Part shown: positions 1,791 to 31,657 of the stretch, one piece after another
Position numbering within the stretch: the stretch's first letter is position 1
How the letters are laid out: each line of letters begins with the position of its first letter
Assembly: GCA_016931895.1 (NCBI GenBank)
Contig: JAFGDY010000053.1
Coordinates: 1 to 64,000 of the forward strand
Direction of reading: 5' to 3'
From: Anaerolineae bacterium
GTDB taxonomy: Bacteria > Chloroflexota > Anaerolineae > 4572-78 > J111
DNA length: 64,000 nucleotides
Notes under the pieces: generated by a model
What the model was told of the DNA's origin: nothing
Database searches by the model: none
The model's input: the letters and a program-made list of their open reading frames with translations, nothing else
Made by a program: the position numbers and the translations under genes

Positions 1791-1976
1791 TTAAATCGGC
1801 TGCGCCTTAACCATCTGGGTTGCAGTGCGGCCTGCCTCGCAAAGCAAGGCTATGCCGCCGCCACTCAGCGGCCGGTCGGTATCTTCTATCTCAAACAGCA
1901 GTTGACCATCTCCCCTAATATTTTTGAGAGCGCGTACCCTGCAAAATAGTTTATAGTTATGCCAGTTTAGACGATC
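1791..1976 (-). pseudogene. C-terminal remnant of a LamG/DUF1080-like beta-sandwich protein
   Basis: Reading the minus strand from 1976 to the TAA at 1791-1793 gives a 61-residue open stretch containing WHNYKL, GDGQLLFEIEDTDRPL, GGGIALLCEAGR and a QPI end. This spacing is typical of the last strands of concanavalin-like (LamG/DUF1080-type) carbohydrate-binding or hydrolase domains. An in-frame TAG at 1977-1979 blocks it upstream, and there is no start codon or ribosome binding site. It therefore looks like the tail of a gene whose body was lost. It begins just at the end of the MFS gene and overlaps its last codons in another frame, which suggests a deletion or rearrangement joined the operon's 3' end to an older gene. 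The family assignment is by pattern memory, not search. Confidence 0.6.
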
Positions 1977-3277
1977 CTATCCGGCAGTTCATCCTCTACC
2001 CGGCGTAAATGCGAATACTGGTAAGCAGCAAAAGTGACCAGTATCCCGCTGAGGCCCATCGCCACCAGCATCAAGCCTATCCCCCGGCCTGGCCCAACGC
2101 CCAGCAGCGCCCCCAAACTTGCGGCCAAAGGGCCGTTTAGATTCAGCAAAGGCTCAAAAACGCGGTCGGCCAGTATGCCTGCTAAAAAATAACCCAGCGG
2201 CAATGTTGACCAGGCAATCAGGCGCCGTACCGCAAAAACCCGTCCTTGTGTGCCGGAGGGGACCTTCTTTTGCCAGATCGCCTGGCTACAACCCATCAAG
2301 ATGGGTAAGCTAAAAAAGTAGAAAAAGGTAGCGGCGGTGATGAGGTTCACCGAGGGAGCTATTCCGGCCACCAGCAAACATACAGCCTGCATCAGTTGTG
2401 CCCCGTAAACGCCATTAATAAGCCGTCGCGGTCCGCCCCATACGCTCATCACCAGGCCCCCCAATAGCATACCGCTTCCTCCCAGCGAGATAACCGTCCC
2501 GACGATGGTGACGGAAGAAAAAGATAGCAACAAAGGTATAAATAATACCTGGATGGTCCCCACCCCCAGATTGCCAAAAGCAATCAGAATCTGCATGCTC
2601 AATAGGCCGGGGCGCGCAGCAATGTATTGCCAGCCGTAGGCGACTTTGGATATAAATGAATCTATGATAGCCTGACCGCTGACCGAAGATTTTACTTTTG
2701 GAAAACGGATAACAAGCAGGATGGACACAGCCACAAGAAATGTGGCAAAATCCAGCAGAAGCACGCCCGTTAATTGAATGGTCACCAGGAGAAGGCCGCC
2801 CAATACCGGGGCCACTAACTGGGCAGCGGCCATATTTATGTTGGTCAGGCCGCTGGCCCGGCCAAAGTGTTGTTTTGGCAGCAACAAGGTTGTGGTGGCC
2901 ACGTAAGCGGGCCATTGAAAAGCCTCGGCAATGGAACTAACACTGGCCGTAAGGTAAAGGTGCCAGACCTCAAGACGATCAAAAATCAACAGTCCTACTA
3001 CACAACCCGTTGCCAGCGCTGCCGCCGAATCGCTAAGGATCATCACCCAGCGGCGGCTCCGGCGGTCGGCTACCACGCCGGCCCAGGGAGAAATCAAAAT
3101 GCCGGGTAGGTAGGCGCATAACAATACCAAACCAAGTTGCGTGGCTGCGCCGGTTTGCTGAAAAATCCAGATGCCCAGCGCGAAACGGGTCAACCCGGAG
3201 CCAATGAGCGAAACCAGTTGCCCAAACCAGACCAGGCCAAAAACCTGCCATCCCGGCAGCATTGCGTGTTGGCGCAT
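1967..3277 (-). CDS. MFS efflux transporter (EntS/MFS_3-like)
   Basis: A 436-residue polytopic membrane protein with about 12 hydrophobic segments. The signature loop GVVADRRSRRWVM between helices 2 and 3 (roughly residues 66-78) is typical of the MFS_3 group that includes enterobactin exporter EntS and many natural-product efflux pumps. It is the last gene of the biosynthetic operon, starting 5 nt after the stop of the PKS/NRPS gene, so translation is probably coupled; no strong Shine-Dalgarno is visible. A role in exporting the lipopeptide or giving self-resistance follows from position, not from sequence. An alternative start four codons in (MLPGW) is possible. The gene's 3' end abuts an unrelated gene remnant and no clear terminator follows. 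Confidence 0.85.
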   Translation of the reverse strand: MRQHAMLPGWQVFGLVWFGQLVSLIGSGLTRFALGIWIFQQTGAATQLGLVLLCAYLPGILISPWAGVVADRRSRRWVMILSDSAAALATGCVVGLLIFDRLEVWHLYLTASVSSIAEAFQWPAYVATTTLLLPKQHFGRASGLTNINMAAAQLVAPVLGGLLLVTIQLTGVLLLDFATFLVAVSILLVIRFPKVKSSVSGQAIIDSFISKVAYGWQYIAARPGLLSMQILIAFGNLGVGTIQVLFIPLLLSFSSVTIVGTVISLGGSGMLLGGLVMSVWGGPRRLINGVYGAQLMQAVCLLVAGIAPSVNLITAATFFYFFSLPILMGCSQAIWQKKVPSGTQGRVFAVRRLIAWSTLPLGYFLAGILADRVFEPLLNLNGPLAASLGALLGVGPGRGIGLMLVAMGLSGILVTFAAYQYSHLRRVEDELPDRIV

Positions 3278-3282
3278 CTAAA

Positions 3283-6200
3283 TTATTTTGGCTTTCTCAC
3301 AGATGGAGCCAAGTAAGCATTCAGGTGCGTGGCTAAAACTTGCACGTGCGGCTCCTCAAGCAGGGTGTAGTGATTACCGGGCAGTTTATGGATTTCAACG
3401 TTGGGGGCCAGTTCAGGCCAGTCCGGCTTTTGGTTTGACCCGCTCTGAGATTCGCCGGCCTGGAAAAGCATCAGTTGTTCGGGATATGGTTGGGGTTGGT
3501 AACGATGATAAGCATGCGCATTGCTTTTGAAGACATCCCACAGGCGGTGTAACTGAGACAGATCGGCTTCCTGTGGCAGTAATCCAATTTCTTTGGCTTG
3601 TTGGCCAATATACCGCATTTGTTCAGCCAAAGATAAGTCTTTCAGGTCCGCAACCGCCAGGGGGAGCGCTACCTCCCGGCCAAAGAGCGCGACCGGATCG
3701 TTAAGCAGCGTTGAGATCAATTGGGCGTCGTCAGGCAGTTCGTCTACCGATTCGGCGGCGTAACTATCAACAAGGGCCAGCGCCGCTACCGATTGACCTT
3801 GCCGGGTCAACTGTTGGGCCATTTCAAAAGCGATGATCCCGCCAAAAGACCAGCCGCCAAGCTGATACGGACCGTCAGGTTGAACCGTCCGGATCACGTC
3901 AATATAATGAGCGGCCATCTCTTCTATGGTAGGCAAAGGTGATTGCGCGCCGTCAAGCCCCACGGCTTGCAGGCCATAAAAAGGTTGGTCCGGTTCCAGA
4001 TGCCGGGCCAACCCGGCATAACAGAGCACATTGCCGCCCATGGGGTGGATGCAAAAAAACGGCGGCCGCCGGCCTGTTGGTTGGATGGGAACCAGGGCCG
4101 ACCATGGTTTGTTTCCGGGCTGCTGGCGGATGAAACGCGCCAGTTGTTCGATGGTTGCTTTCTGAAAAAGAGTGCCCAGGGCCAGGTTGGCCCCCGCTTG
4201 AGAGCCAAACCGGGCCTGGATTTGCGCCAGCAAACGGAGGGCCAGCAACGAATGGCCGCCCAGGTCAAAAAAGTCATCCCGCACCCCAATGGGCCGAACA
4301 GCCAGCACCTCTTCCCAAATTTGGACCAGTTGCAGTTCCAGCGTGTCGCGGGGGGCCACAAATTGCGCCGGCGTATCCTGGCGTGAGCGGTCCGGCGCGG
4401 GTAAAGCGCGGCGGTCAATTTTGCCGTTGGGCGTTAAAGACAGCGCCTCCAGCATGACAAAATCTGATGGGATCATGTACGAAGGCAACTTATCCCGGAG
4501 AAAATGACGAAACTCTGTAGTTGCAGTGTCTGTTGGTTGATCTAACACAAGATAGGCCACCAACCGGCTATCCTCGGGCCGGTCTTGCCGGGCCACCACC
4601 ACGCATTGTTGAACCGCCGGATGTTGGCGCAATGTTGTTTCAATTTCACCCGGCTCAACCCGAAAACCCCGCACTTTGAGTTGATGATCCACACGTCCTA
4701 AAAATTCAATGATTCCGTTGGATTGGTAGCGGGCCAGATCGCCGGTTTTGTACAGAACGCGCGGCTTTTCTTCATCCTTCAGCTTTCCGTCTTCATCCTT
4801 CACAAAAGGATTGGGGATGAATTTTTGCGCCGTCAGCTCAAGTTGGTTGAGATACCCCCGCGCCAGGCTCGCCCCGCCAAGATGCAACTCGCCGGGCGCA
4901 CCAACGGGCACCGGATTGAGTTGCTCATCAAGAATATAGGCCCAGGTATTGGCAATGGGCCGGCCAATGGGCATCACCGGCTGGCCGTTGTCCGCTTGGC
5001 ACGTCCACCAGGTGGCATCAATGCACGCCTCGGTAGGGCCATAGAGGTTGTGCAATTTTACATCCAGTTTGGCCCACAATTGTTTGGCCAGGTCAACCGG
5101 CAGGGCCTCGCCGCCGCAGAAAATGTGGCGCAGCGATCCGCAGCGGGCCAGGTCATCATCGGCCACCAACAGCCGCAATAACGATGGAACCAGTTGCAAA
5201 ATGGTAATCTGTTGCTCAACGATGCATTGCACCAGATAGGCGCTGTCCTGATGCCCACCGGGTTTGACCAGCACCAGTTGCGCCCCCACCAACAGCGGGG
5301 CGTAGAATTCCCAAATGGCGGCGTCAAAACTGAAGGGTGTTTTCTGCAAAACCTTATCCGCAGCGGTTAGCGAAAAGGTATGTTGAAACCAGGCCATGTG
5401 GTTACAAATGGCCCGGTGGGTCAGCATTACGCCCTTGGGTTGGCCGGTTGAGCCGGAGGTGTAAATAACATAGGCCAGGTTCTCCGAGGCAACCGCACCG
5501 GTGGGATTGGATTGTTTTTCTTGAGCGATGGTGTCCCAATCGCTATCCAGGCAGATGAGGTGGGCTTGCTGTTTGGGCAAGTTTGGCCGGAGCCGTTGTT
5601 GGGTCAGTAGAACGGGCGCTTGGGCATCGGCCAGCATAAAGGCCAGGCGTTGGGGGGGATAGGCCGGGTCCAGGGGCACGTAAGCGCCGCCGGCCTTGAG
5701 CACGGCCAGCAGAGCGATCACCATCTCCGGCGACCGTTCCAGGCACAAACCGACCAGAACATCGGGGCCAATACCCAGAGCTTGCAGGTGATGGGCCAAC
5801 TGGTTGGCTTTGGCATTCAACTCGTGATACGTCAACTGTTGATCTTCAAACACAACAGCTACCGCCTCTGGTGTTTGTTTCGCTTGTTTTTCAAACAACC
5901 GGTGCAAGCATTTGTCTTGCCGGGGAAAGCTAACCTGGGTGTTATTCCATTCTTCTAAAATTTGCTGCCGTTCCGTTTGGGTGAGTAAAGATACAGATAG
6001 GGGACTCTGTTGCAGGCCGGTGGCGGCGATATGGGTTAGCATGGTTTCAATATTGCTCAAAATGCGGCGGATGGCGGTTGCCTCAAACCGGCTTTCATCA
6101 TAGCCAATCTCCACCGCCAATTCCGCGCCCGGCAAAACAATCAAATTGAGCGGGTAATTGGTTTTTTGTGACAAATGGATCTCATCAATCGGCAGGGCCT

Positions 6201-9200
6201 CTTGCCACTCCGCCAACGAAGCGGCCAGGGGGAAGTTTTGAAAAACAAGCAGGCTTTCAAATAGGGGCGTACCGCGTGGAACGTCGCTCCAGCCCTGAAT
6301 TTCAACTAAAGAGGTGTAGGCGTACTGTTCCTCTGCCATAAGCTGAGTTTGCAGGTTTTGCAACCATAACAAGAGCGATGTTTCGCCCGTTATCTGCGCC
6401 CGCACCGGCAGCGTATTGATGAATAAACCCACCATCGCCTCAACGCCGGTCAGGGCGGGCGGACGCCCCGAAACCGTCACGCCAAAAACCACATCCTTTT
6501 CGCCGCTGTAAACGCCAAGCAGCAGCGCCCATACGCCCTGAATCACGGAATTCAGGGTCAATTTATGCTGTCGCGCCAGAGACTGGAGCGCCGTTGTGGT
6601 TGAGGCCGGTAACCGGAGATGCTGCTTTTCGTAACGCCCGGCCGGATCGCCTCGGCGTTTGGGGCCGGTATCGCCCGGCAACCGGGTGGGGGCGCTGAAT
6701 CCTTGCAGCATTTTGTGCCACAATGTCTCGGCTTTGGCTGCGTCTTGCTGTTGAAGCCAGGCAATATAATCCGCATAAGGGCGCGGCGGGTCAAGCAGTG
6801 GTAACGTTTGGGCCTGGCTGAACGCCTGGTAAAAGAAAAAGACTTCTTTGAGAATGAGGGGAATGCACCAGCCGTCCAGCAAAATGTGGTGGTGGCTCCA
6901 GATGAAACGATACTTCTTCTGGCCCAGCCGGATCAGGGCGCAGCGCGTTAATGGGGCTTGGTCAAAGGCAAAACCCCGGCGGCGGTCGGCGTCGAGCAAC
7001 GTTTGTAACTCGGCTTGTTGTTGCGGGGCCGGCATCTCCCGCCAATCAAGCTCAATCCAGGGCAGCTTAACATTTTGCCGCACGATTTGCAGGGGTTCTT
7101 TTTGATTTTCCCACACAAAAAACGTGCGCAAAACCGGATGGCGGTTAATCACCTGCTGCCAGGCTTGCCGAAAAGCGACTGTGTTCAGTGAAGTATCAAA
7201 CGTACAGCTAAATTGCTCAAAATAAACCGCCGAGTCCGGATCAAACAACGTGTGGAAAAGCATCCCTTGCTGCGTGGGAGCCAGCGAATAAACGGCTTCA
7301 GCATGGGCCGGCAGTTCTGGTTCCAAATCTGTTGGTATTTCCGGCATAACAGGTTGGCTGAATTGATGTGTTTTCGGCGAGTCTTCTTCAGCGGGTAGCA
7401 CCGGGGCCATTTCCGCAACCGCAGCCAACTCGGCGATGGTGTGATATTGAAATAGTTGTTGCGGCGTTACCCGCAGCCCGGCCTGATAAGCGCGGGTGAT
7501 GATTTGAATGGCCACAATCGAGTGCCCGCCCAGTTCAAAAAAATCATCGTGGATGCCCACTTTTTCCAGCCCTAACACGTCGGCCCAAAGTTGGGCCAGC
7601 AGTTTTTCGGTGGGAGTTTGGGGGGGGACAAAATCAGCCGTAGATTTGAGATTCGCCGGGCCGGGCATGGGCAGCGCCCGATAATCGGTTTTGCCGTTGG
7701 GGGTCAGGGGAATGTCATCCAGGTTCACGAAAATGGCCGGGAGCATATAATCGGGCAATTTATCGCGCAGAAAGCGGTGGAGTTCGCCCGTGGCCGGAGG
7801 TTCCGATTGAGTGGAAACAATGTAGGCGACCAATTGCGGGCCGGTGGGCGTATCCTGATCTACCACCACGCTCTGCCTCACTTGCGGGTGTTGGTTGATC
7901 GCCGCTTCCACGTCGCCCAATTCAATGCGGAATCCCCGGATTTTGACCTGCCGGTCAATGCGTCCCAGGTATTCAAGGGAGCCGTCGGCCCGGTAGCGGG
8001 CCAGATCACCGGTTTGGTAAAGGATGGATGTTTTGTTTTCGTCGTCCAGGAAGGGGTTGGGGATAAATTTTTCAGCCGTCAGCGCGGGCCGGTTGAGATA
8101 GCCTCGGGCAACCCCGGCCCCGCCCACGTAAAGCTCTCCGACCACGCCTATGGGTACAGGTTGCCGGGTTTGATCTAAAATGTAGACCTGCAAGTCCGGG
8201 ATTGGCGTGCCGATAGGACTGCCTGAGGTGGTTTTTAAATCTTTGGTGGTTAGGGGCTGATAGGTGACATGAACGGTTGTTTCGGTGATGCCGTACATAT
8301 TGACCAATTGGGGCGCTTGGTCGCCGTGCCGTTCAAACCAGGGGGTCAAGCTTTGTGGTTCAAGCGCCTCGCCGCCAAAAATAACCCGGCGCAGGGCCAA
8401 ATTGGGATTGGCTCCCAGTGTTTCCTCTGTTTGGATCAGTTGCCGGAAAGCGGAGGGGGTCTGGTTGAGAACCGTCACCTGTTCCTTGGCCAGTAATTTG
8501 TAAAACGCCGCAGGCGACCGGCTTATCCAATAGGGGACCACCACCAACCGGCCGCCGTACAAAAGCGCGCCCCACAGTTCCCAAACCGAAAAGTCAAAGG
8601 CGTAACTGTGGAATAACGTCCACACATCCCGGTGGTCAAAGTTGAACCAGCCCTGGGTTGCCTCAAATAGACGGGAGATATTGCCGTGGGTGACCACAAC
8701 GCCTTTGGGTTCGCCGGTTGAGCCGGAAGTGTAGATAACATAAGCCGCATTTTCCGGCGAGATAATAGTGGTGGGGTTTTGCTTGCTGTGCCGGGCGATG
8801 AGGGGCCAATCGGTATCAAGATAAACAAAACCGGTTTCACGGGGGGGCAACTTCTCGGCCAGTGCTTGTTGGGTTAATACAAGCGGGGCCTGGGTATCGG
8901 CCAGGATAAAGGCCAGCCGTTCCGGCGGGAGAGCCGGGTCTAACGGCACATAGGCACCGCCGGCTTTGAGAATGCCCAACAAGCCAACAACCAGGTCCAG
9001 AGATCGCTCAACGTACAGCGCCACCAAAACTTCGGGGCCAACGCCCAGGGTTTGCAAGTGATGGGCCACCTGGTTGGCTCTGGCATTCAACTCGTGATAC
9101 GTCAACTGTTGATCTTCAAACACAAGGGCTACCGCCTCCGGTGTTCTTTCTACCTGCGCTGCAAATAGTTCAGGCAGGTTTGATTGCGGATAGGCGACCG

Positions 9201-12200
9201 GCGGATTGTTGAAGTCTACCAGTAATTGGTGACGCTCTGCCGGGGTTAGCAATGGAAGTTGGGCAATGGGTTGGTGGGGGTCAACAACAATAGCCTGCAA
9301 CAACGTTTCAAAATGGCCCAAGATGCGGGCAATGGTGGCGTCTTCAAATAACGTGCAATCGTAATCGCAATCCAGGGCCAGTTGCCCGTCGTCCAGTTCG
9401 GTGGCATGCAGGCTGATTTCGTGCGCCACAAAATTGATTGGCTCCGAAAACCATTCGGCTTCCAATTCAAATACCTCCGGCATGGGGATCGGCGGGTTCA
9501 TATTAAAAATGGTGGTTGCCAGGGGAGAGGGGCTATTTTTACGCTTAAAGAGATGATCCAACAACCGGGCATAGGGGTAGTCATGGTGTTCGTAGGCGTC
9601 GAGCAGAAGCTCTCGGGTTTTAGCCAGATGCGCGGCAAAGGTGGTTGGGCCGGTCAAATAACTGCGGATGGGCAGTTGGTTGGCGCAAAAACCCACCATC
9701 GTTTCGCTGCCCTCCAGCGTTCGTCCCGAGGTGGGAATATCAACGCGGACATCATCTTGACCCGTCAGCCGGTGCAGCAACACAATGTAGGCCGCGAGCA
9801 GGGTCATAAATAGGGTGCAGTTATGTTCCAGTCCCACCTGCCTGAGTTTACGGCCAAGATGAGCCGGCAAGCGCACCGATTTTCTACGCCCGCGGTATGT
9901 TCTAATCGCCGGGCGCGGGTGGTCGGTGGGCAGGTTCAACACCGGGATCGAGTTGGCAAATTGGGCCAGCCAGTAAGCTTCGTGGGCGGCCATTGCTTTG
10001 GTTTGGTTTTGTTGGGCCAGCCACTCGGCGTAGGTTCTAAATTGCATGGGCGGGTCCCATTGAATTTGGCGCCCCTGGCAAATGGCCGAATAACGCGCGC
10101 CCAGTTCTTGCATTAACACCCCCGCCGACCAGCCGTCGGCCACAATGTGGTGGGCCGTGAGCGCGGCCACATGCCGGTTTGCCGCCAGTTTGAGCAGGCC
10201 GGCCCGGAAAAGCGGGCCGCGGGTCAGGTCGAATAGGTGCCGGCTCTCGGCGTTGAGCCATGCGGTGGCTTTGGCCTCGTGTTCCGGCTCCGGTACATTT
10301 GAATAATCGGTCAGGGAGAGTTCAACCGGCCAGGTTGACCAAATTTCTTGAAATTGACCGTCGCTGCTGATGGTGGTGCGCAACGCTTCGTGCCGGGCGA
10401 CCACTTGCTGAACGGCCTGCTGCATCGCCTCTAGCCGGAGCGGCCCGCGCAATTGAAGCCCCACGCACATATTGTAGGCCAACGAGCCGCCCTCCCAGAG
10501 TTGGGCCAACGCCCACAACTGCTTTTGCGCTTCGGTCAGCGGTACTCGCCGGATGACCTGCGGGTCCGGCTCGTTTTGAGGTGTGACGCGGGCCGGTGGT
10601 GGGGGGGTGGTTGGGCCGGCGGGCGATGGCGGCGAAGATTCGATGGCCTGGCCGGCCGGTTGTGGCAAAAATCCGCCCGCGCGCAACTCGTCAATACTGG
10701 CTGTGACCGCCTGAATGATGGCAGCCAGGTCGTCATCGGTGTGAGCCGTAGAGAGGAAACAGGCTCTTCCTTCCCACACGTAGATGCCTTTTTCCAGCAA
10801 ATGATAAAACAGCAAATCCATATTGCCGCTAAATTCAAACCGAAACAGTGAGCCAAAATGAGCCACCCGGATTGGAACATGATTTTGACTAAAATAGTTA
10901 TTGAGGGTGGCAACCAGTTGGTCTGTCTGCCGGTTCAACCGCGCCTGCAATTGGGGGCCTTGCGTTTTTATATGCTGCAACGTGGCTCGCGCGGCAGCCA
11001 TGGCCAGCGGATGCTTGCAAAACGTGCCGGCAAAAAACGTAGTTTCGGCTCCAGGATAGGAATTATCGCCATATTGCCACATGCCGCCGTCAACGCCGTC
11101 CAAATATTCGGCCCGGCCCGCCACCACGCCAATGGGCATGCCGCCGCCGATAATTTTACCGTAGGTAGCCATATCCGCCGTAACGCCAAACCAGGCCTGC
11201 GCCCCACCGGGATGAATGCGAAACCCGGTGATGATCTCGTCAAAGATCAGGGCGATATTGTTGTTGGTGGTAAATTGGCGCAGTTGGTGCAGAAACTCCC
11301 GCGGCTGCAAATCCGGCTGCCGGCTCTGCACGGGCGAAACCAACACCGCGGCCAGTTGGTCGGCGTGCCTTTGCAGCACGTCTAATGATTGGGGGCTGCC
11401 GTAATCCAGCACCAACACATCGGCCACCATGTTGGGCGATATGCCGGGCAACACCGGTATTCCGGCCGGGTCCTCGGTTCCGTTCCGGGCCATGGCCAGG
11501 GTGCCGTCAAAATGACCGTGATAAGCGCCGGCAAACATCGCCACTTTGGGCCGGCCTGTGGCCGCGCGGGCCAGGCGCAGCGCCGTCATCACCGCTTCGG
11601 TGCCGGAATTACAAAAGATGACCCGCGCCATGCCGGTCAGCTCGCTGATGAGTTCCGCGACCTCCCCGGCCAGTTTTGTTTGCGGGCCAAGTTGCATGCC
11701 TTGTTGCAGTTGGGCTTGCAGGGCGGCGGTGATAAAATTAGGCCGGTGGCCAAATAGGTTAACGCCAAAACCCATCGTCAGGTCAATGTACTCGTTGCCG
11801 TCAACGTCCCACATCCGGGCGCCTTCCGCCCGTTGGCCGACAATGGGGTACAACATTTCTTTGATGGAAAAACGAAAACCGGCGGAGGCTCGATTATCGG
11901 CCAGCACCGGGCGATAACGCTGGGTAAGTTGTTTTGATTGGGGCGTGCGTTGGGTATAACGCTCAACCAGCGCGGCCAGATGATCCGCTTGCTGTGGGGT
12001 CAGGTGAGGGGACGGCGTTTTCGCCACCTGTGGAATAGGAAAAGGCAGCGCGCTTGAGGCCGCAGGCAGCATTGGCATTTGCGCCAGGGCTGGGCGAACT
12101 TCATTAACGGCGGGCGTTTGGGGCAGCTCCGGCGCGGAACGACGACCCCGCAGTACCTCTAACTGTTGTGCCATCAGTTGCGACATGGTTTCAAGCTGCT

Positions 12201-15819: not shown

Positions 15820-15827
15820 TTGCCTCT

Positions 15828-21800: not shown

Positions 21801-22451
21801 GGTGGTGGTGGGCGCGATCATCAAATTGATGCCGCCGGCCAGGGCCGCATTACATTCCCGGTGCCGCAAACTTTGGCAGGCCAGGTGCAGCGCCACCAGC
21901 GATGAAGAACACGCCGTATCTACCGACAGACTCGGCCCGGTCAATCCCAACGTGTACGAAATTCGACCGGAGGCCACGCTCAAGGTATTGCCGGTGCCGT
22001 AGTAGGCATCAATTTGCTCCAGGCCGTTGGCGCTAACCGAATGGAGCGCATATTCAAAACCGCCGATGCCGATAAAAACCCCGGTTAAACTGTGGCGCAA
22101 CTGTTCCGGCGGAATATTGGCGTGCTCAACCGCCTCCCAGGCCACCTCCAGCAGCAGCCGCTGCTGCGGGTCAAGGCTGACGGCTTCTCGCGGCGAGATG
22201 TTGAAAAATTGGGGATCGAACTGATCTACCTGATCCAAAAAACTGCCGTGCCGGGTGTGCATTTTGCCGGGAGCGTCCGGGTCGGGGTCGTAATAGTCGT
22301 CAACGGGCCAGCGGCTGGCGGGGATCTCCGTTACGGTGTTCTGCCCCTGGCGGAGTAGCTCCCAAAAAGCCTGGGGCGTCTCCACGCCGCCGGGGAATCG
22401 ACATCCCATCCCAATAATGGCGATGGGTTCTGTTTTTGCCTGGGTCATCAA
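15828..22451 (-). CDS. Fully reducing type I PKS module (KS-AT-DH-ER-KR-ACP)
   Basis: A 2207-residue single module. KS (about 8-430, Cys181); AT (about 530-830, Ser631 in GHSIGEY, HAFHSPLM typical of malonyl-CoA selection); DH (about 905-1190, His941, later GDACFQ pair); ER (about 1460-1790, AAAGGVGQAA nucleotide loop near 1613); KR (about 1800-1985, Tyr1944 in GQGNYAAAN, HAAGILDD marking a B-type KR); ACP (Ser2108 in GLDSLM). The module should add one fully saturated C2 unit to the acyl chain received from the FAAL/PKS protein. The DH motif is HxxxQxxxxP rather than HxxxGxxxxP, so dehydration deserves a check. The C-terminal tail is acidic and helical (AEALLLKELEKL), a likely docking element for the next synthase. 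It starts 6 nt after the upstream gene and ends 8 nt before the next. Confidence 0.92.
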   Translation of the reverse strand: MMTQAKTEPIAIIGMGCRFPGGVETPQAFWELLRQGQNTVTEIPASRWPVDDYYDPDPDAPGKMHTRHGSFLDQVDQFDPQFFNISPREAVSLDPQQRLLLEVAWEAVEHANIPPEQLRHSLTGVFIGIGGFEYALHSVSANGLEQIDAYYGTGNTLSVASGRISYTLGLTGPSLSVDTACSSSLVALHLACQSLRHRECNAALAGGINLMIAPTTTIGFSKARMMSPTGRCKTFAADADGYVRGEGCGVVVLKRLSDAVADQDHILAVIRGSAINQEGPSPGLTAPSILAQAAVIRQALANAGVEPAQVGYVETHGTGTPVGDPIEARALGAVFGPDRPPEQPLYVGSVKTNIGHLETASGMAGLIKLILALQHQEIPANLHFQQPSPHIPWADIPLQVVTQHRAWPGQGKKLAGLSGFGFSGTNVHFVLEEAPAPAEPKPDLDNRPLHLLTLSAKTETALIELADRYRNLLAAQPHLAWPEVCFATHTGRGHFRHRLGLAAASTEQAAEKLGNFAQGQHGAGVWAGFVEREESPKIASLFTGQGSQYVGMGRHLYETQPVFRQALAECAKILRDHLPQPLLSVLYPPPEEASPIDETAYTQPALFALEYALAQLWQSWGITPAVVLGHSIGEYVAACVAGLFSLEDGLKLVAARGRLMQNLPANGAMVVVFAGEAQVGAALAPYHRVVSIAAYNSPGQIVISGEKQAIEKVVNALEKDHIKTQRLTVSHAFHSPLMEPMLAEFGQILAGVTFFAPHIDIISNVTGQLAGDEAQTPDYWLRHVRQPVKFQQGLQTLQAQNCPIVIELGPKPVLLGLARQTLPDNNGVWLPSLRQGQNDWQPLLAALATLYTHGAAMDWAGFERDYFDQRPSVTLPTYPFQRQRFWIEPSTATPSPRNYAPDDKNLHPLLGRPVHSAALQPHQFQFEARIGQHAPAFLTDHRIFQTALLPATAYLEMALAAGRIALKTETLTLENVMLEQVLILPEDGLKTIQVLLTPENAKTYIFQIYSLSGNSDNPTWTRHAVGKIAQEKAPADEILVDLESRPQTHHLTEIPAATCFQQSLARGFNFGPGFQLIRRVWQGDNQALGQTQLPDKLAPEANRYLLHPALGDACFQVLEATFTGEDTSDIYLPTGLETLAVRGRPGAQLWSWGQVRPSPPETKEHELKLADLQLCNEHGLVVVEIKGLQLRKVSRDVLRQLLQQEITNWLYKVIWLKKEIETQPGPPLPQQASWLIFAHETGLGRQLAALLAQHHHRPVLVWPGETYGPAEEPDHYYLNPAQPEQFQQLLADSLAGGQPAYHGVVHLWGLTASLNKINVEALPAAQEMGTRSVLHLLQAIVRARWPQPPRLWLVTRGAQPAGPEALPLNMAHAPLWGLGRVIAFEHPELHCTRLDLDPRPDPAEAERLWAMLAQPDIEDQEDQIAFRRGIRYVARLIPYGSRVEAGELTIPVEPFRLTMSDYGLLENLTLAPTKRRPPAADEVEIRVRATGLNFRDVLNALGLLQQFAAELGFNSPEDVPFGGECAGEIVALGENVTDFNIGDEVIAALAIGSLSSHVTTNAAFVIPKPQSLSFAEAATLTTTFLTAAYGLTHLAKIKPGDRVLIHAAAGGVGQAAVQIAQQVGAEIFTTASPGKWEFLRAMGISHVLNSRALDFADDVLRLTQGQGVDIVLNSLNGEFIPKSLATLAPQGRFIEIGKIDIWTTAQMKEARPDVAYHAFDLLEVAQQNPGLIQKLLAEMSRLLQAGQLKPLPHQVFFIENAVDAFRYMAQANHIGKVVITQSKCIAENETPVRPDASYLITGGLGELGLLVAGWLAEQGAQHLILTGRRGLTSAAAQKAVDQLAAAGVDVRVMPADVSDPAAITHLLEEAATTMPPLRGIVHAAGILDDGVLLQQTWPRFEAVMAPKVAGAWNLHTLTQHLPLDFFVCFSSMAGLLGSPGQGNYAAANTFMDALMHHRRRLGLPGLSINWGPWANVGMLADLSAHNQARLTAQGITAFAPAQGKQAMDTLLRQNTPQIGILNINWSKFLAQFSAMPAIPFIETLARNVAITPSPKSLDLRQTLQATPAAERPAVLIDYLCAQLARVLGLSSAEQIEPRQRFFELGLDSLMAIELRNQFENSLGQTLPATVLFDQPTVEALAHYLAQNLELPEDSPPANTKATTVETVFPADPPESDEFGATTAGQIERLSEAEAEALLLKELEKLSF

Positions 22452-22457
22452 GTTACC

Positions 22458-25400
22458 TCACTCTGGGTCATTATCGGACAACGTTGCTAATTGCCGGCCC
22501 ATCAAGTTCGCCATAGTTTTCAGTTGTTGCTGCATAAGCCGTTCCAGCATTTCATCGGTGATACCGGCCAGGTCATCAGGTTGCGGGTCAGATTTAGCAG
22601 AACCGATATCCGGCTGAGCGCGCTTGTCATTACTGGGCAGGCTGCTAAACCAATATCGTTTCCGTTGAAAGGGATAAGTTGGCAGAAAGGAAATCCGGCG
22701 GCGCGGATAGTCCCGGTCAAACCCGGTCCAATCTATATCAACTCCCTGGCCGTATAAGGTGGCCGCGCTCTCCAGCAGCACGCGCCAGTTCTCCTCCTCT
22801 TGATTGAGCGACGCCAACCAGATGGCAACTTCATCTTCCCGGCCCTGCCGGCCCAGGGTTGACAAAACAGGTCGGGGGCCGAGTTCCAAAAACGTCCGGT
22901 AGCCTTGCCGGAACAAGGTATTGATGCCGGCGGCAAATTGAGCCGTTTCGCGGGTTTGGCGTCGCCAATAAGCCGCATCCAAAATATAGCCGGGAGGGAA
23001 GATTTCACCGGTGAGATTGGACACCAATGGCATCCGCAACGCATTCACCGGCACTTGGCCGGCCGCCCCTTCAAGCGCGGCCGGCATTTCGCCGTTTTGG
23101 GGTAAAGCTTGCCTCAAGCGGCCCCGTTCGGTTGCCAGTTTTAGGCCATCTTCCAGGCTAAAACAGCCCGCCACGCACGCAGCCACAATTTCGCCCACAC
23201 TATGTCCCAAAACCACTGCCGGCGCCACGCCCCACGAGCGCCACACCTCGGCCAATGCGTATTCCAGGGCAAACAAGGCCGGTTGGGCGTAGACCGGGTC
23301 GTCAAGAGAAGTAGATTGAAGGTTGGCCTGGCCGGAATAAAGAATGTCCAGTAAAGGCACGTCCAGGTAGGGCTGTAAAATTTTGTTACAGCGATCCATA
23401 ACGTTGCGGAACGTTGGCTGAGTTGCATAGAGTTGATGTCCCATACCCGCATATTGCGCTCCCTGTCCCGTGAATAGAAAAACAATGCCGGTTTGCCGGG
23501 GTCGAGATTTTTTGCCGCCAGCCAATGTTGACACGGGCATTTGCGCGGCCAGCTTTTGCTGCAATTCATCACACGAAGCGGCCACAACTCCCAGCCGGTG
23601 CTGAAAATGGACGCGGCCCTTGTTGGCGCTAAAACAAACGTCTGCTATGTTTTGGCCCGGCGTGGTGGCTAAAATAGTCTGATAGCGCCGGATCAATTCC
23701 TCAAGCGCAGGGGCTGTTTTGGCCGACAAAGCTAACAGGTGCAACGGTCGGTCTTGAACAGTATGACGGTCCGGTTTGGTTATAGCCGGCGCTTCTTGCA
23801 CCACCAGATGCACGTTGGTGCCGCCAAAGCCAAAGGAACTAATCCCGGCCAGGCGAGGTTTATGGGCCGGCCAAGGTTGGCGTTCGGTGGGAATAGCCAG
23901 GGGAGAATTTTTCAGCGAAATATGCGGGTTGAGCGAGGCGAGATGCACATGCGGCGGAATCTCGCCGTAGTGCAACGCCAGAACCACCTTGCACAATCCG
24001 GCGATTCCGGCGGCGGCTTCCAGATGGCCGATATTGGTTTTTACCGAGCCAATCCAGCAGGGAGTAGGTTCAGGTTGCGTTGTGGCAAATACGGCCTGCA
24101 AAGCATTAACCTCAATGGGGTCGCCCAGCGGGGTGCCGGTGCCGTGGGTTTCAATATAACCAATTTCGTGGGGCGATACCTGCGCATTTTTTAACGCTTG
24201 CCGGATGACCTGCTGCTGCGACGGGCCGTTGGGGGCGGTGAGGCCGTTGGTGCGGCCGTCTTGATTGACCGCCGACCCTTTGATGACGGCCAGAATATTA
24301 TCTTTATCGGCCACGGCATCGGCTAACCGTTTGAGCACAACCACGCCGCAGCCCTCGCCGCGCCCGTAACCGTCGGCGGCGGCGTCAAACGCCTTGCAGC
24401 GGCCATCGGCAGCCAGCATGCCGGCTTGAGCAAAAATGCGGGATAAATCGGGCGATAAAATAAGGTTGACCCCGCCCGCTAACGCCAGATCGCTTTCGCC
24501 CTGGCGCAAACTCTGGCAGGCCAGGTGAACGGCCAGCAGCGCCGATGAACAAGCCGTATCAACGATCAGGCTTGGCCCGCGTAAATCAAGCAGGTAAGAG
24601 AGGCGGTTGGCGGCAATACTAAGCGCATTGCCGGTGCCGGTATAGGTGGTGAACTGCGCTAACGGGCCAAATTGCAGCCGGGCGTAATCGTTGCTGCTGA
24701 TGCCCGTAAATACGCCGGTTTGGCTGCCCGCCAGTTGGGGCGGGGCAAGCCCGGCATTTTCCAAAGCCTCCCAACTCACTTCTAGCAGGAGCCGCTGCTG
24801 GGGGTCCATCTGTGCCGCTTCGCGGGGCGAAATGCCAAAAAAGAACGGGTCAAACAAATCAACCTGTTCCAAAAACCCGCCCCACCGGATGCTCAACGTG
24901 TCCGGCGACATGTTGGCAAAATTCTCCGTTTGCCAACGACCCGGCGGAACCTCGCCAATGGCATCAACGCCCTCTCGCAAGAGTTGCCAAAACGCCGGGG
25001 GATCGTTAGCGCCGGGAAAACGGCAGCCAAGGCCAATAATGGCGATGAGGTCCGTGCCCGACATGGAGTCTGTGCCCGGCACCGGGCTGCTGTGGTGGGC
25101 CGGGGTTGTTCCGGCCAGGTGTTGGGCCAGGGTGACAATGGTGGGGTAATCGTATAACAGAGTGGGCGATACAGGACGTTCCAACCAATCTGCCAGTTCG
25201 CCCGATAGCGTGATAGCGGCCAGCGAGTCTAGCCCGTAGTGGGTAAACGGAGTGTTGATATTGATGTCTGCCGCCGGGCATTGACGTTGTTGGGCAATTT
25301 TTTCAACCAGCCAGGTTTGAATATCGGTTTCGTTGCTGGGCGGTCTGGTCGCTTTAACCGATGTTTCCGGGCCGGGCACATCCTTTGCGGGGGGCGTGGT

Positions 25401-27137
25401 CTGCTGCCATTCTCCCTGGACGGCCAGGATTTTATCTAAAAAGCCGGTTTTACAGGCTTGCCGTTGGATTTTTCCGCTGGTTGTTTTGGGGATGCTGACC
25501 GGTTTGAGCAACAACACCGCGTAAACGTCCAAGCCGTGCTCTGCTAACACGGCCCGGCGTACAGCGCCGGTAACTTCCGCCACATTCAGGGTTTGCCGGG
25601 CGTGGCGGGTTATTTCTTGGGCAATCACCAGCCGTTCGGCCCCTTGAACGTCAATGGAAAAGGCCGCGCCGGCTCCGGGCTGCAACGCGGGATGGCTTTT
25701 TTCTACGGTCAGTTCAATATCTTGCGGGTAATGATTTTGGCCGCGAATGATGATCAGGTCTTTGCGGCGTCCGGTAATAAATAGTTCTCCATCCTGCAAA
25801 AAACCCAAATCGCCGGTTCGCAAAAAAGGGCCGTCGCCCGTACCGGCCAGGTGAGCGTTAAGGGTTTGGGCGGATAGCTCCGGCTTGTTCCAATAACCCC
25901 GGCTCACGTGGGGTCCGGCGACCCAGATTTCGCCAATTTCAGCCGGCCGGCACGGTTTCAGGGTTTCCGGGTCAACAATTAATATTTTTTGACCGGCCCC
26001 ACCTTGCCCGCAGCCGACAATAGCGTGCGCGTGTTCGGCACAGGCCGGCACAGGCATAATTTGGTTTTGCCCGAGGGCAGTCCGGTCAACGTATTGGACA
26101 ACGGGCGGAGCCGTTCTTAGCCCGCCGGTCACAAAGAGCGTGGCTTCGGCTAATCCGTAGCAGGGGTAAAATGCCTCCCGCCGGAATCCGTAGGGGGCAA
26201 AAGTTTGGGTAAATTTTTCTATGGTTTCTGGCCTGACTGGTTCAGCGCCCGTAAAGGCAAGGTCCCAACTACTGAGATCAAGCCCATTGCATTGTTCGGG
26301 CGTAATCTTTTCAAGGCAAAGATCATAGGCAAAATTTGGCCCGCCGCTGGTGGTGGCTTCAAAATGAGAAATTGCCCGGAGCCAGCGAACCGGTTTTTGC
26401 AAAAAGGCCACCGGCGACATCAGCACCGTGGGTGCCCCAACATATAACGGCTGAATGATGGCCACTAAGCCCATATCGTGATAGGGTGGCAGCCAGGATA
26501 AGCCCCGGCTGGCGGGTGTGTCGCCAAATCCATGCTGAATCATAGCCGCATTGTGCAAAACATTGCCGTGGCTGATCTTAACCCCTTTGGGGGAGCCGGT
26601 TGAACCGGAGGTATATTGCAGAAAAGCCAACGTATCGGCGGTGATGGCAGGGGCTTGCCATTGACCGGCCAGGGTATTATCAATTTGTGCCGTGGCCAGC
26701 CATTGTAGTTGGGCCAGATCGGGCAATTGGGCCAGCCGCTGTTCCAAACCGGATAAAACAGCGGCTTCGGCCAGGCAAAAAGCGGCCTGGGAATCTTTAA
26801 CAATCATCTCCAGGCGGAAGTCGAGCCGGTTACGCCGGGGGGGATAGGTGGGTACGGCCACAGCCCCGGCGTACAAACAGCCAAAAAAGCCCGCAATGTA
26901 GTTCAGGCCCGGCGGGTAAAGCAATAAAACCCTTTCTCCGGCGGCTCCCAAGTTACGCAATTGTGCGCCAATAGCGCGGGCGTGGTGGTCTAATTCGGCA
27001 TAGTTCCAATGGATTGCTTCGGTTTCGCCGTCCTCTAAAAAAGTATAGGCCCGGCGTTGAGGTTGGTGTACGGCTCGCCAGCGCAACAGGTCAACCAGCG
27101 TGGTGGCGGGGATGGGTTCAAAGCGAATTTGAGTCAT
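22458..27137 (-). CDS. Loading protein FAAL-ACP-KS-AT (AT truncated)
   Basis: A 1559-residue protein that starts the assembly line. The first ~580 residues are a fatty acyl-AMP ligase (YTSGSTGSPKG near 176, GDLGFLQDGELFITGRRKDL), which activates a free fatty acid and passes it to the following ACP (Ser638 in GLDSLAA). A KS follows (about 690-1110, Cys863, HGTGT and NIGHLEAAAG present). The AT has its nucleophile (Ser1313 in GHSVGEI), but the sequence jumps from NGEMPAAL to PLVSNLTGE. Compared with the AT of the next protein, about 80 residues are missing, including the small subdomain and the FHS histidine motif. No ACP follows; the protein ends in a coiled-coil tail (EMLERLMQQQLKTM) likely to dock the next enzyme. 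The KS may be idle, or its extender unit may be supplied in trans. FAAL starters are shared with mycosubtilin and puwainaphycin-type lipopeptides. Confidence 0.9.
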   Translation of the reverse strand: MTQIRFEPIPATTLVDLLRWRAVHQPQRRAYTFLEDGETEAIHWNYAELDHHARAIGAQLRNLGAAGERVLLLYPPGLNYIAGFFGCLYAGAVAVPTYPPRRNRLDFRLEMIVKDSQAAFCLAEAAVLSGLEQRLAQLPDLAQLQWLATAQIDNTLAGQWQAPAITADTLAFLQYTSGSTGSPKGVKISHGNVLHNAAMIQHGFGDTPASRGLSWLPPYHDMGLVAIIQPLYVGAPTVLMSPVAFLQKPVRWLRAISHFEATTSGGPNFAYDLCLEKITPEQCNGLDLSSWDLAFTGAEPVRPETIEKFTQTFAPYGFRREAFYPCYGLAEATLFVTGGLRTAPPVVQYVDRTALGQNQIMPVPACAEHAHAIVGCGQGGAGQKILIVDPETLKPCRPAEIGEIWVAGPHVSRGYWNKPELSAQTLNAHLAGTGDGPFLRTGDLGFLQDGELFITGRRKDLIIIRGQNHYPQDIELTVEKSHPALQPGAGAAFSIDVQGAERLVIAQEITRHARQTLNVAEVTGAVRRAVLAEHGLDVYAVLLLKPVSIPKTTSGKIQRQACKTGFLDKILAVQGEWQQTTPPAKDVPGPETSVKATRPPSNETDIQTWLVEKIAQQRQCPAADININTPFTHYGLDSLAAITLSGELADWLERPVSPTLLYDYPTIVTLAQHLAGTTPAHHSSPVPGTDSMSGTDLIAIIGLGCRFPGANDPPAFWQLLREGVDAIGEVPPGRWQTENFANMSPDTLSIRWGGFLEQVDLFDPFFFGISPREAAQMDPQQRLLLEVSWEALENAGLAPPQLAGSQTGVFTGISSNDYARLQFGPLAQFTTYTGTGNALSIAANRLSYLLDLRGPSLIVDTACSSALLAVHLACQSLRQGESDLALAGGVNLILSPDLSRIFAQAGMLAADGRCKAFDAAADGYGRGEGCGVVVLKRLADAVADKDNILAVIKGSAVNQDGRTNGLTAPNGPSQQQVIRQALKNAQVSPHEIGYIETHGTGTPLGDPIEVNALQAVFATTQPEPTPCWIGSVKTNIGHLEAAAGIAGLCKVVLALHYGEIPPHVHLASLNPHISLKNSPLAIPTERQPWPAHKPRLAGISSFGFGGTNVHLVVQEAPAITKPDRHTVQDRPLHLLALSAKTAPALEELIRRYQTILATTPGQNIADVCFSANKGRVHFQHRLGVVAASCDELQQKLAAQMPVSTLAGGKKSRPRQTGIVFLFTGQGAQYAGMGHQLYATQPTFRNVMDRCNKILQPYLDVPLLDILYSGQANLQSTSLDDPVYAQPALFALEYALAEVWRSWGVAPAVVLGHSVGEIVAACVAGCFSLEDGLKLATERGRLRQALPQNGEMPAALEGAAGQVPVNALRMPLVSNLTGEIFPPGYILDAAYWRRQTRETAQFAAGINTLFRQGYRTFLELGPRPVLSTLGRQGREDEVAIWLASLNQEEENWRVLLESAATLYGQGVDIDWTGFDRDYPRRRISFLPTYPFQRKRYWFSSLPSNDKRAQPDIGSAKSDPQPDDLAGITDEMLERLMQQQLKTMANLMGRQLATLSDNDPE

Positions 27138-27148
27138 AAATTTGGGAA

Positions 27149-29563
27149 TTATTCATAGGCCAGGGTCTCACGTACGCTCAGCCGGGAGGCGCTGCGGGCC
27201 GGAATCAGGCTGGCAATGGTGGAAAGAATAATAACCAGTACCAGCCACAAAAAGATACCCCAAAAGGGAAACGTATAAACAAGCGGTATATTTAAAAACG
27301 TCACGCCGATAGAATTGCCAAAATAGATGCTCAAGGGAATAGCCAACAACATACCCAAAAACCAGCTTAAAAGGCCAATAAAAATGCCTTCGGTAAGCAC
27401 AATTTGCGACACAACCCGCCCCGGCCCGCCTAAAACCCGGATAATGCCAATTTCTTGAGTGCGTTCCAGCACGTTCAGGCTCATCATGCTGGTCAAACCT
27501 AAACCGCCCACCGTGGCAAACAGCAGGGTCATGGTTAGCATTAGATTTAAAATAATAGCAAATACATTTTGCAATGAGGTCCGAACATCGGTATTGAGTA
27601 ATTTGCCCCGGATGCGTAAGTTGACCCGTTGAAAGTGTTGTTCCAGGGCGTCGGACACATCTGTTTGAAACGCGATATCCTGCTTTTGGGTTCTGATGAG
27701 CAGCCGGTCTACCAGGCCCACTTCGCCCATTGTTTTGGCCAGGTAATCATAATTGGTGTAAGCGATGGGGGCCATCAAATCGGTGCCGCCGACAATCTGG
27801 CTGGTGACCAGGCCCACTACTGTCCATTTTATTGTACGGCCCTCAATTTTTAGCTCAACCGTATCACCAATGGCAAGGTCGGGTTCTTCGTCGAGAAAAT
27901 CGGTGTTGATCACCAGGCTGTTGGTGTCTCCCGCCTGTAACCAGCGCCCTTTGATAACCGTGGGGGTAATAAATTCGGTTGGCAACGATACGCCGTGAAT
28001 GGTGGTGGTTTGTTTCGATTCGGCGCCATTAGGCCGGACCCGGAAGCCGAGTTTCACCAAGCGACCTTCGACGCGCGCCACGCCGGGGACACTCAGGGCT
28101 TCTCGTTCCACTTCAACCAGGCGTTGCGGGTCGACAAAACTGATCGAAATATCTTCTTGCCAGTATGCGGCAATATCATTGGTGGTTAAAAAAAGCGAAT
28201 CCCGCACGCTCATTACGGCAATAAAAATGGCCCCGGCCAAACTCAAGGCCACCAGGGTTAAGGCCAGGCGGCCTTTATGCCGGAATATATTGCGAAAGGC
28301 GTAGAGAATGGATGTGGGCAAACCACGAAATTTTTCAAAAAGTTGGTCAAAGGCGCTGGCCCCAAACTGGGCTGTTTTTGCCCCGCCGGCGCCAATGGCT
28401 TCGCGCACGGTAATGCGGGTGCCGCTGATAATGGGATACAGCGCCGCCAGAAAGGGCACAATCAGGCCGGCCAATAATTCTAGGCCAAAAATGTAGAGCG
28501 GAATTTCAAAGCTGGTAATATTAAAATTAAGCAAACCGGCAATAAATACCGTGTTTTGCCGCGCCGCCACCATCCCTAACGGCACGGAGATAATCAGGGC
28601 CAGGATACCAAAAATCACAATGGCCAGCATATACATTGACATAATGGTGCGGCTGGTAGCGCCAATGGCTTTGAGCGAGCCGATCTGTTGCACTTGCCGG
28701 GCCAGGATGGAGGAAATAATATTGACCACTAACGAGGCGCTTAAAAACACCGAAAGAATGCCCAGCATAGATAAGATCAGGATCACCGCCTGGATGATAT
28801 TATCCAGGGGATGTTTGCCCGGCTCCCGGATTTCTTTGGAAGCAATGATCAGGTAATTGTCCTCCATTTTTTGGGTAACTTTGTCTACCACATCACGAAT
28901 ATGATCCTCGTCAAAAGGATTTTGGGCCACGGTGATCATCAATTCATTAAAACCCCGTTCGCCGGTGAGTTTTTCCAGGGTTTCGGCGGTAATGTAACCG
29001 TAGGCAATGTAAGAAAATACGGTGGGGGTTTGGTTAAGATCGTGAACGTAGCCTGCTACCATGATTTCTCGTTGTTTGCCGTTGGGGAGTTCAACGAGGG
29101 TGGTTTCGCCAATATCAAGCTGGGTCAGGTTGATGGACGAACGTTCAAGAAGCATGGTTTGGTTGGGCGGGGGCCATTGGCCTGCTTCCAAGCTAAATTT
29201 GGCAATCCGCAGGTCATCGTAATCATCCCGCACCACCAATCTCAAGGCGCGCCAGTTGTCCGGCCCCACTTTAACCCGCGCTCTGAGTCCATTTTGACCT
29301 TCGGCCTGTTTGACTTCGGGCATCCCCTCTACCAGTTCAACCACGTTGTTATTGAAATTGCGAGCGGCGTAGGTGCTGATAGTGGCGCTGGCCGGATTTG
29401 CCGCCAGGTAACTATTGGATAGATCACGCGAGAGTATCACCCAGGAACGAGCAATGCTGCCTACGGCAAACACGCCAATGGCAATGGTTAATACCACCAG
29501 GGCGGTGCGGATTTTATTGCCCCACAAATCACGCAGGATTTTGCGCGTCCGCAGGTTAATCAT
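27149..29563 (-). CDS. ABC transporter permease, FtsX/MacB family (two FtsX units)
   Basis: An 804-residue inner-membrane permease. An N-terminal helix (about residues 18-40) is followed by a MacB-type extracytoplasmic domain (about 50-240). Three helices with FtsX-like spacing come next (about 255-400), then another helix and a second extracytoplasmic region. A final FtsX triplet ends in [18 protein letters not shown] prefer ATG at 29563 because it overlaps the stop of the ATPase gene (AATGATTAA) and has GAGGA upstream; a start at 29587 adds eight residues. MacB-like permeases drive export by mechanotransmission with an adaptor protein, and a lipoprotein HlyD-type adaptor is encoded divergently at 32425. 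The gene sits between the ATPase and the FAAL gene in the same operon, so a role in exporting or tolerating the lipopeptide is likely but inferred. Confidence 0.88.
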
Positions 29564-31181
29564 TGGCCGTTTCCTCTTCATTCCCAAACGGGATCTGGCG
29601 TTTGCGGCGTTTTAGATCGGGCATAAAGTCTTTTAATTTTGCTTGCACTTGCCGGCGGGTAATGACGTGCGCAATTTCTGCTTTTACCATTTTGTTTTCC
29701 TGAACCAGGTATCGAAACGTGGCCTGATCCAGGGCCACCACTTCAACCTCGGTATCGGCTGCCGCCCGAACGGTGTTCATCCGTTTGCCGCCTCGCAACA
29801 AACCCAATTCACCAAAATGTTGACCCGCCTCTAAGCGTGTTATCACAACTGCCTGCTCGTCCGGGCGATGCTCAATAACTTCAACCCGGCCGGCGGTAAT
29901 AATATAAAACTCGGTGGCCGTATCGCCCTGGTGTACAATAGTGTCTCCCGGGGCAAAGGTTGTGGGTTTAGCCTTGGCCATTATCTCGTCCAGTTCTGCC
30001 TGACTCAGAACCGGCAAAGCTTCGGCTAAACGTTGTCCCGTCGCCCGCTCCCGCATTAGATGAATGATTTGTTCTTTGGTCATTTGCGACCGGGCCATCA
30101 AGTCGGTTAATGTATCGCGGTCTAACTGCATAGCTACAACTTCCGTATCGGCGGCAGCTCGCACCGAGGCCGTGCGTTTTCCGCCTTCCAACAAGCCCAT
30201 TTCACCAAAGTACTGGCCGCTGCTCAGGTGGCCAATGGTAACTTCCTGCCCGCTGGCGTGCTGAAAAATAACGTCAACATTACCCTTGATGATAATGTAA
30301 ACATGTTCAGCCGGGTCACCTTGTTGAACAATTGTAGCGCCGGGGTTATATTTGACCGGTTCAAGTTTTGCGGAAACCTCGGCCAGATCTTTTTTACTCA
30401 ACGAGGGCAAGGCAGCGGCAATTTGTTGATCGGTGATCTCGCCATCGGCAATAAACACCACCCGCGAAACCCGACCGGCCAGGTCTCGATCATGGGTGAC
30501 CATCAAAACCGTTTTGCCCTGCCCGGCAAAGTTTTCAAAAAGCTCAAAAATGGTATCGGATGTTTTTGAATCGAGGCTGCCGGTCGGCTCATCGGCTATC
30601 AGCACGGCCGGTGAATTAGCCAGCGCGCGGGCAATGGCCCCGCGCTGTTGCTGCCCCCCCGACAAGGTGGTGGGGAATTTATGGGCCTGATCAACCAGGT
30701 CAACCTGCTCTAGCAGATGCATGGCCCACTCTTCCCGCTCTGGCCGGGAATATAAATGGCTCAACTCCATGGGCAGCATCACGTTTTCCAGCAAGGTCAG
30801 GGTTGGCAGCAGTTGAAAGAATTGAAAGATCACGCCCAAATTACGGCCCCGCCAGAGAGCTATTTGGTCTTCATTGAGTTTGTGGATGGGGGTGCCGCCG
30901 ACAAACACCTCGCCCAAGGTGGGCCGGTCAATGCCGGTGATCATATTGATCAAGGTAGATTTGCCGCTGCCTGATTTGCCGATCACGGCCACAAATTCGC
31001 CGGCATTAACCTGCAAATCAATGCCCTTGAGGGCAGTGAATGAACCGGCAGGCGTTTCATAAGTTTTGACAACCTGGCGTAAATTAATGAGGGCATTGTT
31101 AGAGAGGGGTGCCGTTGGCCGGGTTGAACCGGCTTCGTTTTGACGGCGATGGGGTTTCGAAAGCAGACCGGGGAGTTTCAT
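29556..31181 (-). CDS. ABC transporter ATPase fused to two cNMP-binding-like domains
   Basis: A 541-residue protein. Residues ~30-255 are a LolD/MacB-type ATPase: Walker [10 protein letters not shown], signature LSGGQQQR, Walker B VLIADEP, switch histidine in MVTHD. Two tandem Crp/cyclic-nucleotide-binding folds follow (about 285-390 and 415-520). Each has a phosphate-binding-cassette-like motif, [16 protein letters not shown] and [16 protein letters not shown]. LolD/MacB ATPases normally stop near 230 residues, so the C-terminal half is an unusual addition that could let a cyclic nucleotide or another small ligand gate transport. It is the first gene of the six-gene operon. AGAGGT precedes its ATG. 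Whether a nucleotide really binds cannot be decided here. Confidence 0.88.
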
Positions 31182-31627: not shown

Positions 31628-31657
31628 CCGGCGGCAAACTTTAACTGATGGCGGTGA

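Follow-up and report, generated by a model that had tools for sequence, protein, structure and literature searches.

A Chloroflexota PKS-NRPS operon with altered acyltransferases, predicted to make a beta-amino fatty acyl-Thr-Gln lipodipeptide

The minus-strand operon studied here, which lies in a 64,000-nucleotide stretch of an Anaerolineae contig (the window), combines three KS-AT units with a single aminotransferase and two amino-acid modules. What such a line would make, and how many of its polyketide units would take part, is the question that it raises. The evidence laid out below suggests that this hybrid PKS-NRPS operon probably directs the synthesis and export of a 3-amino fatty acyl-L-Thr-L-Gln lipodipeptide, with KS1-AT1 idle and with AT2 or FabD shared between modules.

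Operon layout and transport genes

The operon and its upstream boundary comprise the following features.

1967-3277, minus strand: MFS efflux protein, macrolide-efflux/EntS-like (Pfam; NCBIfam below cut-off)
3283-15819, minus strand: 4178-aa protein KS3-AT3-ACP-ACP-AMT-C-A-PCP-C-A-PCP-TE (Pfam)
15828-22451, minus strand: KS2-AT2-DH-ER-KR-ACP protein (Pfam)
22458-27137, minus strand: FAAL-ACP-KS1-AT1 protein (Pfam)
27149-29587, minus strand: permease of duplicated FtsX/MacB type, pairing with the ATPase (Pfam FtsX twice, MacB_PCD)
29556-31181, minus strand: LolD/MacB-type ABC ATPase carrying two cyclic-nucleotide-binding domains at its C-terminus (Pfam ABC_tran, cNMP_binding twice; best NCBIfam matches LolD, FtsE and MacB)
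31599-31629, minus strand: hairpin resembling a terminator at the end of the upstream gene (31658-32110), which it sets apart from the operon

An earlier note on this DNA had described a six-gene minus-strand operon, and its coordinates proved exact: the genes share one strand, the intergenic gaps measure 5, 8, 6 and 11 nt with one overlap, and all six frames are open (29 kb). Its placement of an ABC pair and an MFS pump in the same unit as the synthetase was likewise borne out by Pfam and NCBIfam. The domain order that it gave also agrees with Pfam, except that the acyltransferase (AT) of the FAAL protein is incomplete and AT3 is altered. The order of transcription is ABC ATPase, permease, FAAL protein, reducing PKS, 4178-aa PKS-NRPS and MFS exporter.

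The host assembly, a draft, consists of 320 contigs. It contains no 16S gene, but in an RpoB tree the host joins named Chloroflexota with full support. On the right flank, similarity to the congener G001 picks up again at 31593, and the G001 contig stops about 200 bp further on; together with the hairpin at 31599-31629, this suggests that the unit most likely begins just upstream of 31181. On the left flank, the match to the same congener is confined to 846-1792. The small gene at 31658-32110 has no Pfam match and is conserved in the congener (L128); upstream of it, at 32167-32195, lies a sigma-70 type promoter match (12/12) with an extended -10. Near the left contig end, positions 225-259 form a 14-pair hairpin with a T-run, terminator-like in the plus direction.

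The two cyclic-nucleotide-binding domains of the ABC ATPase, absent from the earlier description, are present by Pfam, and their fusion to the ATPase hints that a nucleotide signal might control export. The permease is at best 49% identical to permeases of family members and has nine matches in its own genome, itself included. Both the ABC transporter and the MFS protein would serve to export the lipodipeptide. In the contig search, the closest homologues (65-66%) of the aminotransferase (window positions 10000-12800) were genes standing alone in Scytonema, Nostoc and Tolypothrix (L001, L002 and L008), each followed by an MFS gene resembling that of the operon.

Polyketide modules and their acyltransferases

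The polyketide part of the line begins with the FAAL protein.

25419-27083, minus strand: FAAL (fatty acyl-AMP ligase; Pfam AMP-binding, DIP2-like; NCBIfam FAAL models below their cut-offs)
25116-25313, minus strand: loading-unit ACP (Pfam PP-binding, 609-674; GLDSL motif)
23940-25046, minus strand: KS1, catalytic C-H-H intact (Pfam, motifs, tree)
22794-23483, minus strand: AT1, truncated (Pfam, alignment)
22461-22544, minus strand: C-terminal tail ERLMQQQLKTMANLMGRQLATL, helix-like, a match to the pre-AMT linker of related lines

The FAAL aligns across its whole domain to the solved PKS-embedded homologue 7r7e. In the KS tree, KS1 groups with the KSs of FAAL-ACP-KS-AT-ACP-AMT lines, where its precise branching point is not fixed, and its branch length indicates a rate of evolution no faster than that of its relatives. 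Pfam covers AT1 only at profile positions 1-131 and in one later fragment, and alignment reveals that a block of about 75 residues is cleanly missing, in frame (junction near 23079), with the catalytic His of HAFHS and most of the small lobe gone. An assembly chimera behind this gap is unlikely, as the gap is in frame and the flanks of the junction are only moderately similar to AT2 and AT3. Pfam finds no ACP after AT1, and a hidden one was ruled out, the tail being a pre-AMT linker: ERLMQQQLKTMANLMGRQLATL matches the stretch between ACP and AMT of related lines and recurs at that place in the 4178-aa protein. Since AT1 lacks its catalytic His and no ACP follows, FAAL-ACP-KS-AT, previously read as a working module, does not appear to be a functional extension module in cis. 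These observed lesions suggest that KS1-AT1 has lost the capacity to elongate. KS1 itself may have a role, given that its C-H-H residues are kept and that it evolves at the pace of its relatives.

The two further KS-AT units and the carrier domains belonging to them are as follows.

21300-22430, minus strand: KS2 (Pfam, motifs; sister of KS3 in the tree)
19890-20831, minus strand: AT2, the sole intact malonyl-type AT of the line (GQGSQ, GHSIGEY, Arg, HAFHS; Pfam)
16020-19733, minus strand: DH-ER-KR-ACP of a fully reducing module (Pfam; DH H/D, ER, KR LDD and S-Y-N, and ACP DSL motifs)
14572-15705, minus strand: KS3, C-H-H kept, with the HGAGTFLGDVIE variant (Pfam, motifs)
13183-14088, minus strand: AT3, Gln to Tyr and Arg to Trp, on a longer branch than AT2 (Pfam, alignments, tree)
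12409-12879, minus strand: tandem ACP pair upstream of the AMT (VDSI and ADSL motifs; Pfam PP-binding matches four stretches of the whole protein)

The DH motif of the reducing module reads HRIFQTALLP, with Q instead of the usual G. KS3 has HGAGTFLGDVIE for HGTGT..GDP.E, whereas all other KSs listed have HGTGT or HGSGT, and GDP. In AT3, Trp replaces the malonate-carboxylate-binding Arg, 25 residues after the catalytic Ser. Arg occupies this position in all other related-locus ATs passing the same motif filter (45/45) and, by direct alignment, in CurL and DEBS. The oxyanion motif of AT3 is GYGSQ instead of GQGSQ, a Gln-to-Tyr change at a position less strict than the Arg (it is Gly in six Saprospiraceae ATs), and the catalytic Ser and His are retained. 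The end branch of AT3 measures 0.58 changes per column against 0.33 for AT2, while those of KS3 and KS2 measure 0.39 and 0.32; the longer AT3 branch beside near-equal KS neighbours fits relaxed constraint on AT3.

The type I PKS ATs of this cluster are the only ones in the genome, and the one other AT is FabD (C36); loan of an AT from other PKS clusters was considered and rejected, as the genome offers only FabD. A separate malonyl-AT gene beside the synthetase, as in the Bacillus clusters, does not occur in the operon. AT2 alone appears fit to load malonyl. Because AT3 is without the malonate-binding Arg, we propose that AT2 or FabD may load the tandem ACPs, and we lean slightly towards two elongations rather than three, with one of these enzymes serving module 3 in trans. 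In comparison with trans-AT systems, AT1 and AT3 carry lesions, and in the tree the KSs cluster with those from modules that have an AT. AT3 may retain activity towards a different acyl donor, or slow activity towards malonyl, and, given the motif changes of KS3 itself, the whole of module 3 may be losing function.

The view that all three KS-AT units are working modules, implied by the layout in the earlier note, is not supported, given the truncation of AT1 and the double substitution in AT3. A version of it would keep three elongations with every KS-AT unit active, KS1 using malonyl on a neighbouring ACP such as that of the reducing module. The intact residues and normal branch length of KS1 are compatible with this, but it would demand work from a module without an ACP and an AT1 without its catalytic His, in an operon that has no free-standing ACP, and we consider it unlikely. 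AT3 might also be re-specialised rather than dead, the Trp for Arg exchange favouring a monocarboxylic acyl group, as in loading ATs. Loss of this Arg in FAS and PKS ATs moves specificity away from malonyl, and the kept Ser and His and the open frame point the same way. A starter unit would, however, be useless to an extension module behind a reducing module, the oxyanion Gln has changed as well and the branch is longer, all of which makes re-specialisation very improbable.

Aminotransferase, peptide modules and release

Downstream of the tandem ACPs, the 4178-aa protein carries the domains that would define the product.

10669-12018, minus strand: class III aminotransferase (AMT), PLP Lys in GKIIGGG (Pfam Aminotran_3)
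7420-10548, minus strand: NRPS module 1, C-A-PCP, A code DFWNIGMVHK (Thr; Pfam, code)
4135-7284, minus strand: NRPS module 2, C-A-PCP, A code DAWQFGLIDK (Gln; Pfam, code)
3319-4062, minus strand: type I thioesterase (TE), GWSFGG and GNH (Pfam, motifs)

The AMT matches the solved mycosubtilin MycA AMT (6kfm) over its whole length (E = 5.5e-166). The A codes, read by anchoring on core motifs with the final K as the A10 lysine, are exact copies of published codes for Thr (DFWNIGMVHK; PMC2533009) and Gln (DAWQFGLIDK; PMC2866473). The other catalytic motifs are present throughout (FAAL, KS C-H-H, AT2, DH, ER, KR, carrier serines, AMT Lys, C HHxxxDG, TE Ser/His), and the host genome has two phosphopantetheinyl transferases, including an Sfp-like one. 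The C domains carry HHxxxDG and an E domain is absent, so that L-Thr and L-Gln are expected. The earlier reading of a FAAL start and an AMT giving a beta-amino acyl chain, followed by Thr, Gln and a TE, is upheld as a prediction by the MycA match and the exact A codes, and the product class with its Thr and Gln is very likely correct.

Reading each catalytic step from the observed sequences and lesions, we infer the following course. The FAAL, judged by its family, would charge its ACP with a free fatty acid (chain length n). KS1-AT1, a probable remnant of an ancestral single PKS module, would add nothing, KS1 either relaying the chain or serving as a scaffold only. The chain would pass to KS2-AT2-DH-ER-KR-ACP for extension and full reduction (n+2), and KS3 would then add one more unit without reduction (n+4, beta-keto), using malonyl placed on the tandem ACPs by AT2 or FabD. 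The AMT would turn the 3-keto group into a 3-amine, the two NRPS modules would attach Thr and then Gln, and the TE would release the product, which is more likely to be the linear free acid than a lactam with a ten-membered ring. For chains of C12 to C18, the calculated [M+H]+ values of the linear form are 445.302, 473.333, 501.365 (C16) and 529.396, each lower by 18.011 for the ring.

The lactam would require the TE to close a small ring through the beta-amine. The iturin TE cyclises its product, and the catalytic motifs of the present TE are intact. The puwainaphycin TE is also held to promote cyclisation (PMC4219810). A ten-membered ring would nevertheless be far smaller than those of the puwainaphycin or iturin families, and closure here is doubtful. 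A more radical alternative is that the line is decaying and has no product, with AT1, its missing ACP, AT3 and the KS3 motifs as accumulated damage. Several lesions in the PKS part and the lack of an aminotransferase hit in the one congener searched would suit decay; against it, every frame of the 29 kb is open, canonical motifs are kept in the FAAL, AMT, C, A, PCP and TE domains, and KS2 and KS3 evolve at rates similar to those of their relatives. Decay appears improbable.

Relatives and evolutionary setting

The operon has the general features of FAAL-primed beta-amino lipopeptide synthetases, namely a starting FAAL and ACP, a class III AMT after a KR-less KS-AT-ACP, an NRPS directly after the AMT, and a TE. 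In the puwainaphycin/minutissamide synthetase of Cylindrospermum alatosporum, FAAL, ACP and a reducing PKS precede a KS-AT with AMT (PMC4219810). Both lines thus share FAAL and ACP, a fully reducing PKS, a KS-AT with embedded AMT, an NRPS and a terminal TE, for a beta-amino acyl lipopeptide that is here predicted. Puwainaphycin stands apart by its large peptide ring, by a methyltransferase within the reducing PKS and by a monooxygenase downstream of the AMT; in our line, Pfam matched neither of the two enzymes, the peptide part has just two residues, and AT1 and AT3 look inactive.

The mycosubtilin and iturin synthetases (MycA, ItuA) resemble the operon in their FAAL-ACP-KS-ACP-AMT-C front and in the full-length match between AMTs. 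The AMT module relies on an outside AT in the Bacillus loci (L018-L022), where this AT is a separate gene, and would do so here, with AT2 or FabD in the putative role. By contrast, the Bacillus lines have no reducing PKS module, and seven amino-acid modules make a cyclic heptapeptide where our line has two modules. On domain order, the front end is nearer to puwainaphycin than to iturin, and the AMT itself is of iturin type. The laxaphycin/scytocyclamide front (LxaA, LxaB, LxaE) also has a FAAL-ACP start and an AMT-made beta-amino acid (PMC7524897), but splits one elongation over LxaB and LxaE and continues with 11 or 12 residues.

Within Chloroflexota, genome G333 (L100-L101) holds the closest AMT of the phylum-wide sample (67%) in a similar line, FAAL-ACP-KS-AT-ACP-AMT-C-A-PCP-C-A-PCP followed by C-A-PCP-TE. 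That line differs in having one PKS module, an intact AT, three residues and different A codes. One-residue megasynthases (KS-AT-ACP-AMT-C-A-PCP-TE; L037-L048) are conserved across two phyla, in Luteolibacter, Haloferula, Verrucomicrobiaceae and Saprospiraceae, as if making beta-amino acyl mono-amino acids. Judging from these domain orders, few-residue beta-amino lipopeptide lines are not unique to this locus, with one residue in Verrucomicrobia and Saprospiraceae and three in G333. The open-access literature searched yielded no described beta-amino acyl-Thr-Gln compound; the earlier statement that no lipopeptide of this make-up is described thus stands for those papers, with the qualification that few-residue beta-amino lines occur elsewhere. 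Other Chloroflexota lines are longer: one family (G132, G140, G171 and G335; L102-L109) conserves a FAAL / ACP-KS-AT-ACP-AMT line with many NRPS modules, to which G140 adds a later KS-AT-KR module.

KS2 and KS3 are sisters in the KS tree (99/89) and adjoin KSs of another family of the same class (G702, G592). The AT tree holds no such pairing, AT2 lying elsewhere and AT1 joining AT3 (93/76), and this discordance suggests that domains were probably exchanged in addition to module duplication. G702 (L136) and G592 (L137) have KS-AT-ACP-KR-ACP-AMT, and some 490 unassigned residues separate the AMT from the C domain; this stretch may hold a monooxygenase like that of puwainaphycin. Searches of a single same-genus genome (G001) and of ten same-family genomes gave no AMT of the embedded type. 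In the simplest history, a single-module FAAL-KS-AT-ACP-AMT line would have split, its first module would have lost the ACP and part of the AT, and PKS modules would have been inserted.

A tentative extension of this history is that a cis-AT line has been caught part-way to trans-AT, with AT2 feeding two proteins after the loss of two ATs, KS1-AT1 acting as a relay or docking scaffold from FAAL-ACP to the next protein, and an undescribed beta-amino acyl-Thr-Gln lipodipeptide as product. This is possible rather than probable, and the open-access papers searched returned nothing on AT sharing. The operon predicts a simple new class of lipodipeptide surfactants from Chloroflexota, a phylum with little characterised PKS-NRPS chemistry in the open-access literature searched. 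It is also a small natural system in which to ask how a modular PKS manages after losing ATs and whether one AT serves several modules; such sharing would bear on the origin of trans-AT systems and on the engineering of short lipopeptides.
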